Below, in pieces: positions 1,044 to 56,479 of a stretch of DNA of 64,000 nucleotides. Below the pieces are notes generated by a model. The model did not search any database, was not told the origin of the DNA, and saw only the letters and a program-made list of their open reading frames with translations. The DNA comes from an uncultured Acidimicrobiaceae bacterium (GTDB lineage: Bacteria; Actinomycetota; Acidimicrobiia; Spongiisociales; UBA5794). The first letter of the stretch is position 1. Every line of letters starts with the position of its first letter. The DNA lies in assembly GCA_947259365.1 (NCBI GenBank), contig CAMYMC010000008.1, positions 124,001-188,000 on the forward strand, written 5' to 3'. The position numbers and the translations under genes were made by a program.

Positions 1044-4528
<3,485 letters not shown>

Positions 4529-4529
<1 letters not shown>

Positions 4530-12097: not shown

Positions 12098-12417
12098 GGT
12101 GCCTCCCCCTCCTCGATCGTGAGGAAGACGTCGCCGTCGGTGATGGAGACGCCGTAGACCGGAACCGGCTTGGTGGCGGGCAACGTGGACGGCGCGCCGG
12201 TACGGAGATCGAATGCCGACCCGTGGCGGGGGCACTCCACCTCGTCGTCGAAGACCTCGCCCTCGGCGAGCGAGGCCTCGGCATGGCTGCACTCGTCCCC
12301 GATGGCGTACACGTCCTCACCGAGGCGGAACAGCGCGACCCGGTGCCCGGCCACCGCGACACGCACACCCCGCTCGGCAGGGAGGTCGGCGAGGGCGGCG
12401 ACACGTATCCGGGTCAT
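12094..12417 (-). CDS. Rieske-type [2Fe-2S] ferredoxin of the SUF operon
   Basis: A 107-residue soluble Rieske protein with the cluster ligands C-x-H in DECSHAEASL and C-x2-H in VECPRHGSAF. Such ferredoxins sit between sufD and sufC in many Actinobacteria and are often named as the ferredoxin subunit of aromatic dioxygenases, although no oxygenase is present here. A likely role is electron supply or cluster transfer during Fe-S assembly (inference). GTG 12420 and ATG 12417 are both possible; GGGAGG lies about five bases before the ATG, which is preferred. The gene overlaps sufD at one end and sufC at the other. Confidence 0.9.
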   Translation of the reverse strand: MTRIRVAALADLPAERGVRVAVAGHRVALFRLGEDVYAIGDECSHAEASLAEGEVFDDEVECPRHGSAFDLRTGAPSTLPATKPVPVYGVSITDGDVFLTIEEGEAP

Positions 12418-13592
12418 CACACCCTCCCTGCCGCTTGCGCCCTGACGTACTTGTCGTTGATCCAGCCCCGGACGGGGACGGCCACCCCGCCGACGGGGAA
12501 CCTGGCGAGGACCTCCTCGAAGAAGCCGCGGACCTGGAGCCGGTCGGCCCGTGCGCCATCGAGGCCTCGGCTCATGAGGTAGTAGTGCTGCTCGGCGTCG
12601 AGAGGACCCACGGTCGAGCCGTGCCCGCAGCGCACATCGTTGGCGAGGATCTCCAGGTTCGGCACGGATTGGGCGGCGGCGCCCTCGGAGAGGATGAGGT
12701 TGCGGTTCGTCTGGAACGCGTCGGTGCGCTGCGCGCTCTCCTCGATCCGGATGAGCCCGGTGAACACCGACAGCGCCTCGTCCTCCACCGCCCCTTTGAG
12801 GAACATGTCGCTGTGGGTGTTGAGCCCGACGTGGTGCATGAAGTAGCGGTAGTCGAGGGTCTGGTCCTCCTCGCCGAAGTATGCGCCGAGGACCTCCGCG
12901 GAGCTTCCCCGTCCGAGGAGATCGACGGTGAGGTGGAGCCTGGAGAGCGACCCGCCCAGCCCCGCCTCGGCGATCCGGACCGCCGAATCGCGCCCGACGG
13001 CGACACGAGCCTGGGCGAGCGCGGTGGTCGCGTACCCCCAGTTCTGGACGACCGTCAGCGACAGGTTCGCATCTGCTCCGGAGACGACCTCGATATGAGG
13101 CACGACGAGGGCGCGCACGTCGCCCTGCGAGACGTACTCGACGACGACCGACGCCTCGGCGCCGTCCTCGACGTCGACGAGGAGGTGCGGGAAGCTGATA
13201 CCCCCGTCGGCGACGGCGGCGATGGTGACGTGGACGGGGGCGGGAACGGCGGCACCCCGGGGCACGGTGACGACCACGGCGTCCGATGCGAACGCATGGT
13301 GGGCCGCCGTGAAGATGTCGTGTTCGACGGGGATCGCCGATCCGTACACCGCCTCGACCCGCTCCGGAGCCTCGCCGACCGCCTCGAGGAGAGGTCGCAC
13401 CGCCACGTCGCCACCCTCGGCGGCAACGACGGCGCCGTCGGAGACCGTCGCCTTGCCCGACACCTCGGGTAGCGCCGCGGCGAGCCGGGACAGCTCCGGC
13501 GGCGGCGTTCCGTTGCGCTCGGGCAACGAGAAGTCGGCCAGGTCGAGGTCGAGCTCGACGTAGCGCCAGATCTCCTCCGCCTCTGACGGCAT
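12417..13592 (-). CDS. sufD: SufD, Fe-S cluster assembly scaffold subunit (N-terminus extends upstream, see next entry)
   Basis: The 391 residues from ATG 13592 hold the SufB/SufD beta-helix: MPSEAEEIWRYVELDLDL, the central SufD core, VRCGHGSTVGPLDAEQHYYL (the conserved CxHG segment) and YLMSRGLDGARAD near the C-terminus. SufD joins SufB and SufC in the scaffold. The ATG start is only a minimum. In frame upstream the codons read APAWLQERRRAAFDVFAGLP, which is the conserved N-terminal helix of SufD, so the real protein begins earlier, probably at CTG 13697 (426 residues). The gene is followed at once by the Rieske ferredoxin and sufC. Confidence 0.95.
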   Translation of the reverse strand: MPSEAEEIWRYVELDLDLADFSLPERNGTPPPELSRLAAALPEVSGKATVSDGAVVAAEGGDVAVRPLLEAVGEAPERVEAVYGSAIPVEHDIFTAAHHAFASDAVVVTVPRGAAVPAPVHVTIAAVADGGISFPHLLVDVEDGAEASVVVEYVSQGDVRALVVPHIEVVSGADANLSLTVVQNWGYATTALAQARVAVGRDSAVRIAEAGLGGSLSRLHLTVDLLGRGSSAEVLGAYFGEEDQTLDYRYFMHHVGLNTHSDMFLKGAVEDEALSVFTGLIRIEESAQRTDAFQTNRNLILSEGAAAQSVPNLEILANDVRCGHGSTVGPLDAEQHYYLMSRGLDGARADRLQVRGFFEEVLARFPVGGVAVPVRGWINDKYVRAQAAGRV

Positions 13593-13697
13593 CGGCAGGC
13601 CGGCAAAGACGTCGAATGCCGCTCTCCGGCGCTCCTGGAGCCAGGCGGGGGCACCGGCTGGGACGCGGTCGATCGTGGTGAGGTCGAGCGGTAGCAG
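13593..13697 (-). other. sufD: in-frame N-terminal extension of SufD with a probable CTG start
   Basis: No ATG, GTG or TTG occurs in the sufD frame between 13592 and the TGA at 13770-13772, yet this stretch encodes conserved SufD sequence (AWLQERRRAAFDVFAG). CTG at 13695-13697 is preceded by AGGAG seven bases upstream (CTGAGGAGCCCCGCC then CTG), a good ribosome-binding geometry, and gives a 426-residue protein. The TGA at 13770 is the stop of the upstream UDG gene, which is in the same frame. Alternatives are stop readthrough or a sequencing error that hides a normal start. Confidence 0.6.
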
Positions 13698-13769
13698 GGC
13701 GGGGCTCCTCAGAAGGTCGGCGGGAGGATACTCAGCAGCGGCGACGGCCCAAAGCCGGCCGCGGCCGGG

Positions 13770-45203: not shown

Positions 45204-46009
45204 CGCCGGGATGTTACCGAGGGCCTGATCCCAACCCCGCCCCGGCGGCGCCGGCCACCAGCATCGCGGTTGCGGCCGGGTCCTCCATTGGGAGGAAGTG
45301 GGTCGTGGCCGGCACCACCCTCACCGGCGACGAGGAGGACGGGTACCGCCAGCTCACCGAGCCGGTCGTACGCGCCGTGGTCCAGACCGGCTGCGAAGAA
45401 CTCCGCTTCGTGCTCGGGAGCGCACTTCAGCTCTACGCCCCCGTCGGCCTCGCCGAGCCCGTGGGTGACGTATGCGGCGAGCACCCTCTCGTCCCAGCCG
45501 GAAAACGCGGGCTTGGCCCGCCAGCTCTCCTCGGCTTCCTGGCGTGAGGAGAACCGACGTCGGCGTCTTCGCGCTGCCACAGCGACCGCGACCTCCGGGC
45601 GTCGCCGGCGCGGGCCGGGGAAGACGATCGGCTCGACGAGCACGAGCGATGCGAACGTCCCGGGAGCGGTGAGCTCGGCGAGGACGAGGGCGGCCGCTCC
45701 GCCGGAATGGCCGACGCCGGTGATCCCGATGGCACCGTCGGCGACGGCGAGCACGTCGTGCCCGAGGTCCCACCAGTCGTAGGGAGGAACGACGGCATCA
45801 CTGTCGCCGTGAGATCGCTGGTCGAACGCGGTCGCCTCGAAGCCGGGGAGGAGCGCCCCCAGCTCGACGAATACGGGACCCCAGACCTCCTTGCAGAACC
45901 CCGTCGCGTGAGCAGCGATGATCTGTGGCCCGCCCGAGCCGTGCCGCCATCGCCGGGTCGCCAACCCGATGTTCCCCGCGCGCACGAACGCCGGGTGGTC
46001 GACGCGCAT
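45197..46009 (-). CDS. alpha/beta hydrolase, C-terminus disrupted by a frame change
   Basis: ATG 46009 overlaps the CBS-BON stop (ATGA). The N-terminal part is a normal alpha/beta hydrolase: IIAAHATGF is the oxyanion loop, ATAFDQRSHGDSD follows, and the nucleophile elbow is VGHSGGAAA. After VPVLLVAGEG the frame becomes Arg/Gly-rich, whereas the next frame from about 45318 reads VVPATTHFLPMEDPAATAML, the conserved segment with the catalytic His, ending at TAA 45214-45216. About 20 residues usually found between these parts are also missing. It may be a pseudogene, a small deletion, or an assembly error. An intact relative would be an esterase or hydrolase; MenH is not supported. Confidence 0.75.
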   Translation of the reverse strand: MRVDHPAFVRAGNIGLATRRWRHGSGGPQIIAAHATGFCKEVWGPVFVELGALLPGFEATAFDQRSHGDSDAVVPPYDWWDLGHDVLAVADGAIGITGVGHSGGAAALVLAELTAPGTFASLVLVEPIVFPGPRRRRPEVAVAVAARRRRRRFSSRQEAEESWRAKPAFSGWDERVLAAYVTHGLGEADGGVELKCAPEHEAEFFAAGLDHGAYDRLGELAVPVLLVAGEGGAGHDPLPPNGGPGRNRDAGGRRRRGGVGIRPSVTSRRC

Positions 46010-46596
46010 CAGCCGTCGTCGAGCCGCCACGTGAGCGTGTTCTCGACACGGACGACGCCGTCGAGGCGGCGTGCCAGCTCCTCGAGCAGTCGGGATTCGT
46101 TGCGCGTCCCGATCTCACCGGAGAAATGGACGATCCCGTCCGCCACCCGGACGTCGATGTCGTCGGGATCGACGAACAGGACCCGCCGCAACAGGTCTTC
46201 ACGGATCTCGTCTTCGATGACCTCGTCGGGCCTGGTGAAGGCAGCGACGACGTCGAGGCGAGAGATGATCCCGAGGATGCGGTCCTCGGCGTCGACGACC
46301 GGAAGCCGCTTGACATCCTGGACGACCATGACCTTCGCCGCGTCGGTGATGGGTTGGTCGGGAGCGATGGTCACGACGCCCCGGTTCATCACCTCGCCCA
46401 CGGTCTCGACCGGACGTGGGTCCTCCGCCGCGCCCCTCGCCACCTCGAGCCGGAGGAAGTCGGCTTCGGTGATGATGCCGACGAGGCACGAGGCCTCGTC
46501 GCACACCGGCAAGCCGCTCACCCGGTGCCGGAACATCAGGCGGGCAGCGTCGTTGATCGGGGTGTCGGGTGACACCACGATCACATCCGTGGTCAT
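46009..46596 (-). CDS. CBS-pair and BON domain protein (probably starts at ATT 46614)
   Basis: From ATG 46596 the 195 residues contain two CBS motifs, first DVIVVSPDTPINDAARLMFR to about 60, second GVVTIAPDQPITDAAKVM to about 125, then a BON domain at 135-190 (RRVLFVDPDDIDVRVADGIV). Such proteins sense adenine nucleotides or act at membranes. In-frame codons upstream read RVVDLM, which completes the usual CBS start M-R-V-x-D-L-M. That needs ATT 46612-46614 as start; GGAGG lies nine bases before it, and no Shine-Dalgarno precedes the ATG. It overlaps the hydrolase gene by ATGA. Confidence 0.87.
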   Translation of the reverse strand: MTTDVIVVSPDTPINDAARLMFRHRVSGLPVCDEASCLVGIITEADFLRLEVARGAAEDPRPVETVGEVMNRGVVTIAPDQPITDAAKVMVVQDVKRLPVVDAEDRILGIISRLDVVAAFTRPDEVIEDEIREDLLRRVLFVDPDDIDVRVADGIVHFSGEIGTRNESRLLEELARRLDGVVRVENTLTWRLDDG

Positions 46597-46611
46597 GAGA
46601 TCGACAACGCG

Positions 46612-46626
46612 AATCTGCTCGGCCCT
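46612..46626 (-). promoter_or_regulatory. ribosome-binding site and ATT start candidate for the CBS-BON gene
   Basis: On the minus strand CGGAGGGCCGAGCAG is followed by ATT, then codons for RVVDLM and the annotated ATG. Spacing from GGAGG to ATT is nine bases; to the ATG it would be 27. ATT starts are rare but known (for example infC). Confidence 0.5.
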
Positions 46627-46668
46627 CCGTGTGCAGCGCTCATTCTGACACGCCCCGGGGCGCCCCGG

Positions 46669-49404
46669 TCACACCGAGGCGCGAACGTCGCGCCGCGACG
46701 GCACGAAGGGCCCGGCGGCGTGACGGACGCGGATCCTGGCGTCGACGACCGTGACCCCCGAGCCGGGCTCCGCGACCTTCACCGGGTTGAGATCCATCTC
46801 CGCGATCTCGGGCACGTCGTCGATGAGGGCCGAGACCCGGAGCAGCGCTTCCTCGAGGGCGGCGACATCGCCCCGAGCGCCACCCCGGTACCCCTCGAGG
46901 AGCCGAGCGGACTTCACCTCGCGGATCATCTCGGCGGCATCGAGATCGGAAAGGGGGTGGATCCGAAACGCAACGTCTTCGATGAGTTCGACGAACACGC
47001 CCCCGAGTCCGAACACGACGAGCGGACCGAAACTGGGATCCTCCGCCATGCCGATGAGCACCTCGTGGCCTCCGGCGACGTACTGCTGAACGAGGGCGCC
47101 GGATGCATCCCCCACCGCACCGGTGACGGCCCGGTACGCCTCGCGGATCGCTGTCGCTCCCTCGACGTCGAGCACGACGCCGCCGACATCGGACTTGTGC
47201 AGCGCGCTCGCCGAAACGACCTTCAGCACGACGGGGCCACCGAGACGTTCGGCGATCTCGACGGCCTCGTCCTCGGAGCCGGCGACCCCCGACCCCGGGA
47301 GGCGGAGGTGATAGCCGCCAAGCACCGCGGCGACCTCATGCAGCTCGAGCCAGCCGCCGTCGGCCCCCAACCGCTCCAGGGCAGTTGCGACGACGTCCCG
47401 CACGGCCTCCGTCGCGACGTCCGCGAACACCGCCGCCTCGCCCTCGGGCCGGGCACGCCACTCCGCGTACTCGACGGCCCTGACGAGCGCCCGTGCTGCC
47501 TGCTCGGGGAACGGGTACGACGGCACCCGCCGGTCGCCGGAGGCGAGCTCCTCGGGGGCGCCACGTGAGCTCATGTAGACGCTGAGGAACGTCCTGTGGC
47601 CGTGGTGGGCGGCCCCGGCCCCCCGGATCGCCTCAGCGACGGCCTCGGCGCCTTCCACCGTCGGCGGCACGAAGATGGCGATGACGGCGTCGACCTCGTC
47701 GGACCCGAGCATGAGATCGAGACATGCCGCGTATTCGGCGGGCCCGGCCGCGGCGATCATGTCGACCGGGTTGGCGACGGCCGCCGCCGGCGCGAGGTGT
47801 GACCGAAGCGCCGCCTGGAGTCCCGGCGAGAGCTCGACGACGTCGAGGCCGCGCGACTCGAGGGCATCGACGGCGAGGATCGCGGGGCCGCCCGCGTTCG
47901 TGACGATGCCGACGCGGCGACCTCCGGGCAGGGGCTGGTTGGCGAGGAGAGCCGTCACGTCGAAGAGCTGACCGAGCGTCTCGGTCCGGATGACGCCGGC
48001 CTGACGGAAGAGCGCATCGACGGCGACGTCGAGGGAGGCCAGAGAGCCGGTGTGGCTGCTCGCGGCCCTGGCCCCGGCCGAGGTGCGGCCTGACTTCACC
48101 GCGACGATGGGTTTGGTGCGCCCGATACGGCGGGCGACGCGCGAGAACCTCCTCGGGTTCCCGAACGACTCGAGGTAGAGGAGGATCACGTCGGTGGACG
48201 GATCGTCCTCCCAGTAGAGAAGGAGGTCGTTGCCGGAGACATCCGCTTTGTTCCCGACCGAGACGAAGCTCGAGATGCCGATGTTGAGCTGTGCGGCATA
48301 ATCCAGGATCGCAATGCCGAGCGCACCCGACTGGCTCGACATGGCGACGTTTCCTCGCGGCGGCGACAGCGGCCCGAACTGGCCGTCCACGCTCACCACA
48401 GGGTCGGTGTTGAGCACCCCCATGCAGTTCGGCCCCACCATGCGCAGACCACCGGAACGGACCACCTCGAGCAGCTCCAGCTCCCTGGCTCGCCCCTCAG
48501 GGCCGGTCTCGCCGAAGCCGGCCGAGATGACGACGATGCCGCGCACGCCTTTGGCGACGCACTCGCGGGCCACGTCGATGACGTGGGATGCCGGCACGAC
48601 GATGAACGCGAGGTCCACCGGATCGGGGATGTCGGTGATCGACGGGTAGGCGCGTACCGAGCGGACGACGTTCGTTCCCGGGTTCACCGGGAACACAGGG
48701 CCGGTGAAGTCGCCGGTGAGGAGGTTGGCGAAGAGCCTCCCGCCGATCGACGTCGGGTCTCTGCTGGCTCCGATGACGGCGATCGAGTGCGGATAGAAGA
48801 TCGGGAGCAGCGACGCCGCGACCGCCCGCTTCTCGTGCTCGTCGCCGGCGGCCAGCGTCTCCGGCGACTCCTCGGTCGGGAAATCGACGACGTAGACGCC
48901 TTCTTCGATGGTCCGGGTGAGCTGGTACCCCGCGTTGCGGAAGACCCGGAGCATCGCGTGGTTGTCGGCCAGCACGTACGCCCGGAACGCGCCGATCCCC
49001 CGGGTCCTGGCGTACGCCGTCAGCTGTTGTAGGAGCGCGGTGCCGATGCCGCGGCCCTGGGCGTCGTCGACGACCGCGAACGCGACCTCGGCGGCGACCT
49101 CGTCCCCGTCCGAGCGCTCGTAGCGGCCGACCCCGACGACCACGCCGTCGTCGAGCACGACGAACGCCATCCGGTCGTCGTAGTCGAGCTCCGTGAAGTA
49201 ACGGAGCTCGTCGGGATCGAGCCGCCGTTTCACCCTGAAGAAGCGCTGATAGACGCTCTGGCGGGACATCCGGCCGAGCATGCTCTGGAGGGCGTCCCCG
49301 TCCGCGGGGAGAATCGGCCGCATCCGCGCGACCCCGCCGTCCTTGAGCACGAGATCGAAGATCCAGGACTCCGGATACCCGGCGGGGAGGACGTCGCCGC
49401 TCAT
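46669..49404 (-). CDS. GNAT acetyltransferase fused to NDP-forming acyl-CoA synthetase
   Basis: A 911-residue protein. A GNAT domain (about 25-165; VVDDAQGRGIGTALLQQLTA is the CoA loop) precedes a CoA-binding domain (FYPHSIAVIGASRDPTSIGG, about 205), two succinyl-CoA-ligase-like domains and an ATP-grasp domain (VVLKVVSASALHKSDVGGV, about 715). The order is GNAT first, opposite to enterobacterial Pat. The His in ASSHTGSLA matches the phosphorylated His of active ADP-forming synthetases, which is lost in Pat enzymes, so both acyl-CoA synthesis and protein acetylation are possible. It is first in the run that ends with menF. Confidence 0.92.
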   Translation of the reverse strand: MSGDVLPAGYPESWIFDLVLKDGGVARMRPILPADGDALQSMLGRMSRQSVYQRFFRVKRRLDPDELRYFTELDYDDRMAFVVLDDGVVVGVGRYERSDGDEVAAEVAFAVVDDAQGRGIGTALLQQLTAYARTRGIGAFRAYVLADNHAMLRVFRNAGYQLTRTIEEGVYVVDFPTEESPETLAAGDEHEKRAVAASLLPIFYPHSIAVIGASRDPTSIGGRLFANLLTGDFTGPVFPVNPGTNVVRSVRAYPSITDIPDPVDLAFIVVPASHVIDVARECVAKGVRGIVVISAGFGETGPEGRARELELLEVVRSGGLRMVGPNCMGVLNTDPVVSVDGQFGPLSPPRGNVAMSSQSGALGIAILDYAAQLNIGISSFVSVGNKADVSGNDLLLYWEDDPSTDVILLYLESFGNPRRFSRVARRIGRTKPIVAVKSGRTSAGARAASSHTGSLASLDVAVDALFRQAGVIRTETLGQLFDVTALLANQPLPGGRRVGIVTNAGGPAILAVDALESRGLDVVELSPGLQAALRSHLAPAAAVANPVDMIAAAGPAEYAACLDLMLGSDEVDAVIAIFVPPTVEGAEAVAEAIRGAGAAHHGHRTFLSVYMSSRGAPEELASGDRRVPSYPFPEQAARALVRAVEYAEWRARPEGEAAVFADVATEAVRDVVATALERLGADGGWLELHEVAAVLGGYHLRLPGSGVAGSEDEAVEIAERLGGPVVLKVVSASALHKSDVGGVVLDVEGATAIREAYRAVTGAVGDASGALVQQYVAGGHEVLIGMAEDPSFGPLVVFGLGGVFVELIEDVAFRIHPLSDLDAAEMIREVKSARLLEGYRGGARGDVAALEEALLRVSALIDDVPEIAEMDLNPVKVAEPGSGVTVVDARIRVRHAAGPFVPSRRDVRASV

Positions 49405-55209: not shown

Positions 55210-56361
55210 TCACCCGGACGAGGCGAAACGCTTCCTCAGGCGGCGCTGGATGGACACCGCCGCCTGCAGCGAGAACACGGCGTCCCGGCGCGAGGTGAGC
55301 GCCGAGATCGGCTGGAGGACGAGGTGGCGCAGACCGGCGTCGTAGTACGCCGCGACCTGGTCCTCTACCTGGCGGGGCGTTCCCACGAACGCCTCACGGG
55401 CGAGGACGTCGACCGGCACCGCCCGCAGCGCCTCCTCGAGCTCGTCCCTGCTGTAGCGCTGCGGGATGAAGTCGATCATCCCGCGGTGGGTCGAACCGAG
55501 CGGGTGGGTGAGACCGTGGCGCGCCCACGTCGTGGCCGGGGTCAGCAGGCTCATGAATCTCACGCCCCTCGTCTCCAGATGGGCGTGGGCGGCCCGCTCG
55601 GTGCGCCCGACCACCATGTAGGTCTGCCAGCCCGGCGTGATCGCCGCCGGGTCGCGTCCGGCGGCGCTCGCCGCCGTCTGGATGACGCCGAGCGACGCGG
55701 CGTACTCATCGGGCGTCATCGTGAGCGTCGGGTACCAGCCATCACCGTGCTCGCCGGTGAGGCGCAGCATCCGGGGAAGGTGCGACGCGACCCAGATCTC
55801 GGGGCTCCGCCCCGGCGGGGGACGGAGGTCCATGAGGGCACCGTCGAGGCTGAAGTGCCGCCCGCGATAGTCGAATGGCCCGTCTGCGGAGAAGCAGCGG
55901 CGAACGACCTCGAGGGCCTCCTCGAGCCGGGACACCGGTGTCGCGAAATCGAGCCCGTAGGGAACGGTGTTCTCCGCTTCTCCGGCGCCGATGCCGAGGA
56001 TGGGCGCTCGCTTCGTGAGGTGAGAGAGCGTGAGAAACGCCTGGGCGATGAGGACCGGATGTCGCCGGATTGGCTCGGTGACACCGACGGCGAGGCGGAG
56101 CCGCCCGGCCCGGCGGGCCAAGTACCCGAGGAGCGTCTGGTAGTCGAAGAACTGGTGGGGAGACGACGCCGGGTCGGCGATCCAAGAGAACTCCTTGTCC
56201 CAAATCGCCCTGGGGAAGAACCCGAGGAAGTGGTCGACGACCCATGCAGTGTCGAAGCCGGTCGCCCGCGCCGCTCGGACCAGGAGGTTGACCCGGTGCA
56301 ACGGGGGTTGGGTGCCCACGGTCATGCCGGACGTGAACGGTGCGGTCGGGGTGTCGATCAC
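55210..56361 (-). CDS. LLM-class F420-dependent oxidoreductase
   Basis: A 383-residue luciferase-like enzyme of the methylene-H4MPT-reductase type. RAARATGFDTAWVVDHFLGF, LRLAVGVTEPIRRHPVLIAQ and PILGIGAGEAENTVPYGLDF mark the F420-binding barrel, and SPEIWVASHLPRMLRLTGEH precedes the C-terminal helices. Length is typical of this subgroup. The substrate is unknown. Confidence 0.88.
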   Translation of the reverse strand: MIDTPTAPFTSGMTVGTQPPLHRVNLLVRAARATGFDTAWVVDHFLGFFPRAIWDKEFSWIADPASSPHQFFDYQTLLGYLARRAGRLRLAVGVTEPIRRHPVLIAQAFLTLSHLTKRAPILGIGAGEAENTVPYGLDFATPVSRLEEALEVVRRCFSADGPFDYRGRHFSLDGALMDLRPPPGRSPEIWVASHLPRMLRLTGEHGDGWYPTLTMTPDEYAASLGVIQTAASAAGRDPAAITPGWQTYMVVGRTERAAHAHLETRGVRFMSLLTPATTWARHGLTHPLGSTHRGMIDFIPQRYSRDELEEALRAVPVDVLAREAFVGTPRQVEDQVAAYYDAGLRHLVLQPISALTSRRDAVFSLQAAVSIQRRLRKRFASSG

Positions 56362-56479
56362 CCGGCGAGGCTACCTGCGGGCGGTCGCGGCGGTGCGGGT
56401 TAGGGGCGACGACACCGCTACCGTGTCCCGCATCGGGGAGCCGGCACGGCTTCGCCGACCCGACGCGGCGAGGGACCTC

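Follow-up and report, generated by a model that had tools for sequence, protein, structure and literature searches.

The question raised by this locus is where translation begins in a CBS-BON gene whose reading frame offers no ATG, GTG or TTG at the place where its relatives start. We present here an analysis of a 64,000-nucleotide stretch (the window, which lies in G000:C8) from the genome of an uncultured Acidimicrobiaceae bacterium, assembled as 3.34 Mb in 50 contigs. The gene product carries a CBS pair (PF00571, two stretches) and, C-terminal to it, one BON domain (PF04972), and its nearest relative shares 80% identity across 201 amino acids. The adjoining gene upstream, which combines a GNAT domain with acyl-CoA synthetase-like domains, also adjoins the CBS-BON gene in relatives. 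Feature coordinates are collected in Table 1. Elsewhere in the window, a SAM riboswitch (RF00162, 73.1 bits) lies at 831-920 on the plus strand, immediately 5′ of a long open reading frame at 1044-4529.

Table 1. Positions in the window of the features discussed
Feature	Position	Strand	Remarks
CBS-CBS-BON gene	46009..46614	minus	201 aa from ATT; Pfam CBS 1.1e-31 (2 stretches), BON 1.2e-12
ATT, putative start codon	46612..46614	minus	Opposite ATG/GTG/TTG in 80/80 homologues; ATT only in this genome
ATG, internal Met7	46594..46596	minus	Standard ORF listing starts here (195 aa); Met7 in 80/80 homologues; without Shine-Dalgarno
GGAGG Shine-Dalgarno	46624..46628	minus	9 nt before ATT; anti-Shine-Dalgarno duplex -10.0 kcal/mol
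TGTCAGAAT, probable extended -10 element	46642..46650	minus	Counterpart in 20/22 relatives; putative promoter role
Upstream gene	46669..49404	minus	GNAT domain with acyl-CoA synthetase (NDP-forming)-like domains (Pfam)
sufD	12417-13769	minus	SUFBD_core
CTG, putative sufD start (second case)	13695..13697	minus	SUFBD_core; GAGGAG 7 nt upstream; GTG/TTG in 17/20 orthologs

On the minus strand the start region reads CACGGAGGGCCGAGCAG ATT CGC GTT GTC GAT CTC ATG ACC, and the longer leader that runs up to the same ATT is GGAGGGCCGAGCAG. The frame is open throughout from the upstream TGA (46671-46669) to ATG 46596 and contains no ATG, GTG or TTG between the two. Read from ATT, the N-terminus is (M)RVVDLMTTDVIVV. 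The initial annotation had proposed that this ATT opens the RVVDLM beginning of the CBS domain, and the comparison with homologues bears it out. The codon aligned with ATT in 80 distinct homologues, which span 39-80% identity, is ATG in 52, GTG in 26, TTG in 2 and nothing else; the 29 closest family members have one of these three codons without exception. Relatives identified by name belong mostly to Acidimicrobiia, and nearly all are metagenome-assembled. The inherited start position thus holds a non-NTG codon in this genome against NTG in every homologue, and on these alignments ATT is a derived state. The five RVVDL codons between ATT and ATG encode the same residues as in relatives G002 and G018 and differ from those of G002 at third positions alone. 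With its residues conserved and third positions variable, this stretch has the appearance of coding sequence.

The same alignment weighs on translation from ATG 46596, which would yield a protein without the first six residues. This ATG is the first in-frame ATG, GTG or TTG and hence the standard choice of an open reading frame listing, and at only six codons downstream of ATT it might yield some product. All 80 homologues, however, have ATG at codon 7 and their own start six codons upstream, so ATG 46596 appears to be an ordinary conserved methionine. Counting from ATT, the Pfam CBS match (profile positions 2-54) opens at residue 4, ahead of this ATG, and is followed by BON; a start at ATG 46596 would truncate the CBS domain. 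No Shine-Dalgarno sequence precedes it, and no TAnnnT box, a sign of a leaderless start, was seen by eye just 5′ of it. We consider a start at this ATG very unlikely.

The local signals point to ATT. Pairing with the anti-Shine-Dalgarno reaches -10.0 kcal/mol 5′ of ATT against -0.2 kcal/mol 5′ of ATG 46596, in agreement with the earlier observation of GGAGG nine bases before the one codon and nothing before the other. Random positions pair as well as the ATT site or better in 2.9% of cases, and GGAGG at a spacing of 5-10 nt occurs at 1.5% of positions. Further upstream, TGTCAGAAT ends 27 nt 5′ of ATT and is read here as a probable extended -10 box; 20 of 22 relatives have a matching element 23-36 nt 5′ of their start. 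Both the Shine-Dalgarno sequence and the -10-like element of ATT occupy the same places as in relatives. TAGnnT-like boxes were also seen shortly 5′ of several other starts in the window (49498 on the plus strand, 36459 on the plus strand, 55210-56370 on the minus strand, and others), a pattern expected of leaderless transcripts.

Two further readings of the leader were weighed. A 16-codon leader open reading frame (ATG 46644, MSAAHGGPSRFALSIS, then a stop) could couple translation to ATG 46596 through a TGA/ATG overlap, and the overlap, CTCATGACC, is present in the sequence. The ATG of this frame, however, sits on the conserved -10-like element and should fall outside the transcript of that promoter; with its transcription unlikely, the coupling reading was rejected and is barely conceivable. 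Readthrough of the in-frame TGA of the upstream gene into the CBS frame was also rejected, as relative L006 has an extra in-frame stop before its start.

Taken on the alignments and the local signals, the CBS-BON gene is very probably translated from ATT 46614-46612, a codon that in this lineage would have taken over from an ancestral ATG (or GTG). The initial annotation had gone further and, with a CTG start in sufD as a second case, had asked whether start selection is relaxed in this organism, a question to be followed up by a scan for starts other than ATG, GTG or TTG and by a check of infC and initiation factor 3 (IF3). The survey sample comprised 388 kb of this genome (C8:1-208000 and C17:1-180000), compared with stretches of nine relatives. 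Among 121 testable genes, the CBS-BON gene alone has a non-NTG codon where every ortholog has a start (8 of 8 genomes). Divergent N-termini (as in sufD) and spurious upstream NTG codons (as in infC) are blind spots of such a survey, and both of these genes were checked by hand. Within the sample, ATT is an isolated event, and relaxed start selection is not supported.

Other flags in the sample were set aside. Two were each raised by two or three genomes. The first, at C17 13535-13972 on the plus strand, falls between ribD and ribAB on the strand opposite the riboflavin genes; the second, at C17 39035-39499 on the plus strand, where GTC is matched by two genomes only, was taken for an overlapping frame. 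Flags from single genomes, where inspected by eye, were traced to antisense frames or to prfB and its site of +1 frameshifting. L230, a gene outside the window (G000:C8:57480-58589, minus strand) that we take to be prfB-like from its sequence, carries an AGG-TTC-CTT-TGA-C site typical of programmed +1 frameshifting, which is also found in G005. The comparison set consisted of six contigs from G005, G007, G008 and G002 with 290 testable genes. Four contigs gave no flag, and two contigs of G007 gave three flagged open reading frames, none a clear non-NTG start: a conserved leader before ribD, a frame on the strand opposite the remainder of a gene region, and a CTG (GTG or ATG in others), eight codons downstream of which all have a conserved GTG.

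These counts also bear on the reading of ATT as a consensus or assembly error for a true ATG. A single G-to-T change turns ATG into ATT, the codon rests on one assembled consensus from a genome in 50 contigs, and the named relatives are themselves almost all metagenome-assembled. Against an error, the CBS-BON gene is intact and well conserved, and the same ortholog test gave no other clear case in the 121 testable genes here or the 290 elsewhere, so start-codon errors are not common. We regard an error at this codon as very unlikely.

The machinery gives no sign of relaxation either: infC, IF3 and the initiator tRNA of this genome look normal. The infC gene (G000:C17) starts with ATC behind AGGAGG, matching the ATC reported for Streptomyces infC (PMC5472188). 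In 23 relatives the infC start at the same place is ATC in 19 and ATT in 4; in three of these, the start is also preceded by an ATG or GTG at a distance of one or two codons. IF3 can be aligned with solved IF3 structures along almost its entire length, and the anticodon stem of the initiator tRNA is the normal GGG/CCC. For infC of this genome (C17:8000-15000), an annotator would probably choose an in-frame GTG situated some 21 codons further upstream. A suspected frameshift beside infC proved to be a normal rib operon, with the order ribD, ribAB, ribH, then infC. A conserved noncoding leader before the RibD gene (G000:C17, 13890-15077, minus strand) is a candidate FMN riboswitch by resemblance, and a similar leader is found in G007:C1 near 100322.

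For sufD, the position of the proposed CTG start holds. Among 20 readable orthologs, 17 have GTG or TTG at that column, two have their start one codon off, and one has ATG three codons further on. The case is weaker than that of the CBS-BON ATT because the sufD N-terminus is poorly conserved.

How ATT might serve can be framed by known systems. In the proposed mechanism, the strong GGAGG at 9 nt would recruit the ribosome, and the initiator tRNA would initiate at AUU, presumably with methionine in vivo, at lowered efficiency; its pairing with AUU is imperfect, which the strong Shine-Dalgarno sequence would partly make up. In Listeria monocytogenes, rsbW mutants with ATG changed to ATT or ATA showed translation in the order ATG > ATA > ATT, and the ATT mutant initiated weakly in a reporter with protein still visible by Western blot; fewer than 0.3% of Listeria core genes have rare or flexible starts (PMC13068326). 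By analogy, output of the CBS-BON gene from ATT is probably below that from ATG, and the gene would be weakly translated. As in those mutants, an ATG appears to have been replaced by ATT in one lineage, but the rsbW mutants were selected in the laboratory and their translation was measured, whereas the CBS-BON start is natural and known from sequence.

Regulation by IF3 offers a second comparison. The infC gene has an AUU or AUC start in E. coli and Streptomyces and is autoregulated by IF3, and in Streptomyces the GTC start of sigR is repressed by IF3, as tested by codon replacement and IF3 mutants (PMC5472188). The CBS-BON gene resembles infC in its ATN start codon and strong Shine-Dalgarno sequence. 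With sigR it shares that, outside infC, an actinobacterial gene has a non-NTG start that start predictors misannotate. By analogy with infC (AUU/AUC) and sigR (GUC), IF3 may discriminate against the CBS-BON ATT and repress it. Unlike sigR, whose start was examined experimentally, the CBS-BON start is read from genomes, and unlike infC, whose non-NTG start is conserved across the sampled order, it is confined to one genome. A selected IF3 switch would be expected to keep a non-NTG codon across related genomes; as relatives lack one, the CBS-BON ATT is not filed as such a switch, and its lack of conservation favours drift or a recently reduced strength over a long-standing regulatory switch. That ATT is an adaptive attenuator, through which the CBS-BON gene, and possibly also sufD with its CTG, came to belong with infC to a small group of genes whose translation follows free IF3, is unlikely. 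The likeliest reading is that ATT is a weak start peculiar to this lineage, with reduced translation as its effect.

Weak starts of this kind are rare but already known, and the CBS-BON gene would be a clean natural replacement of NTG by ATT outside infC, noticed only because its homologues define where the start lies. Gene callers limited to ATG, GTG and TTG would cut six residues off the CBS-BON protein, and would also misplace the infC and sufD starts of this genome. The gene lends itself to testing to what extent a strong Shine-Dalgarno sequence may rescue an ATT start.
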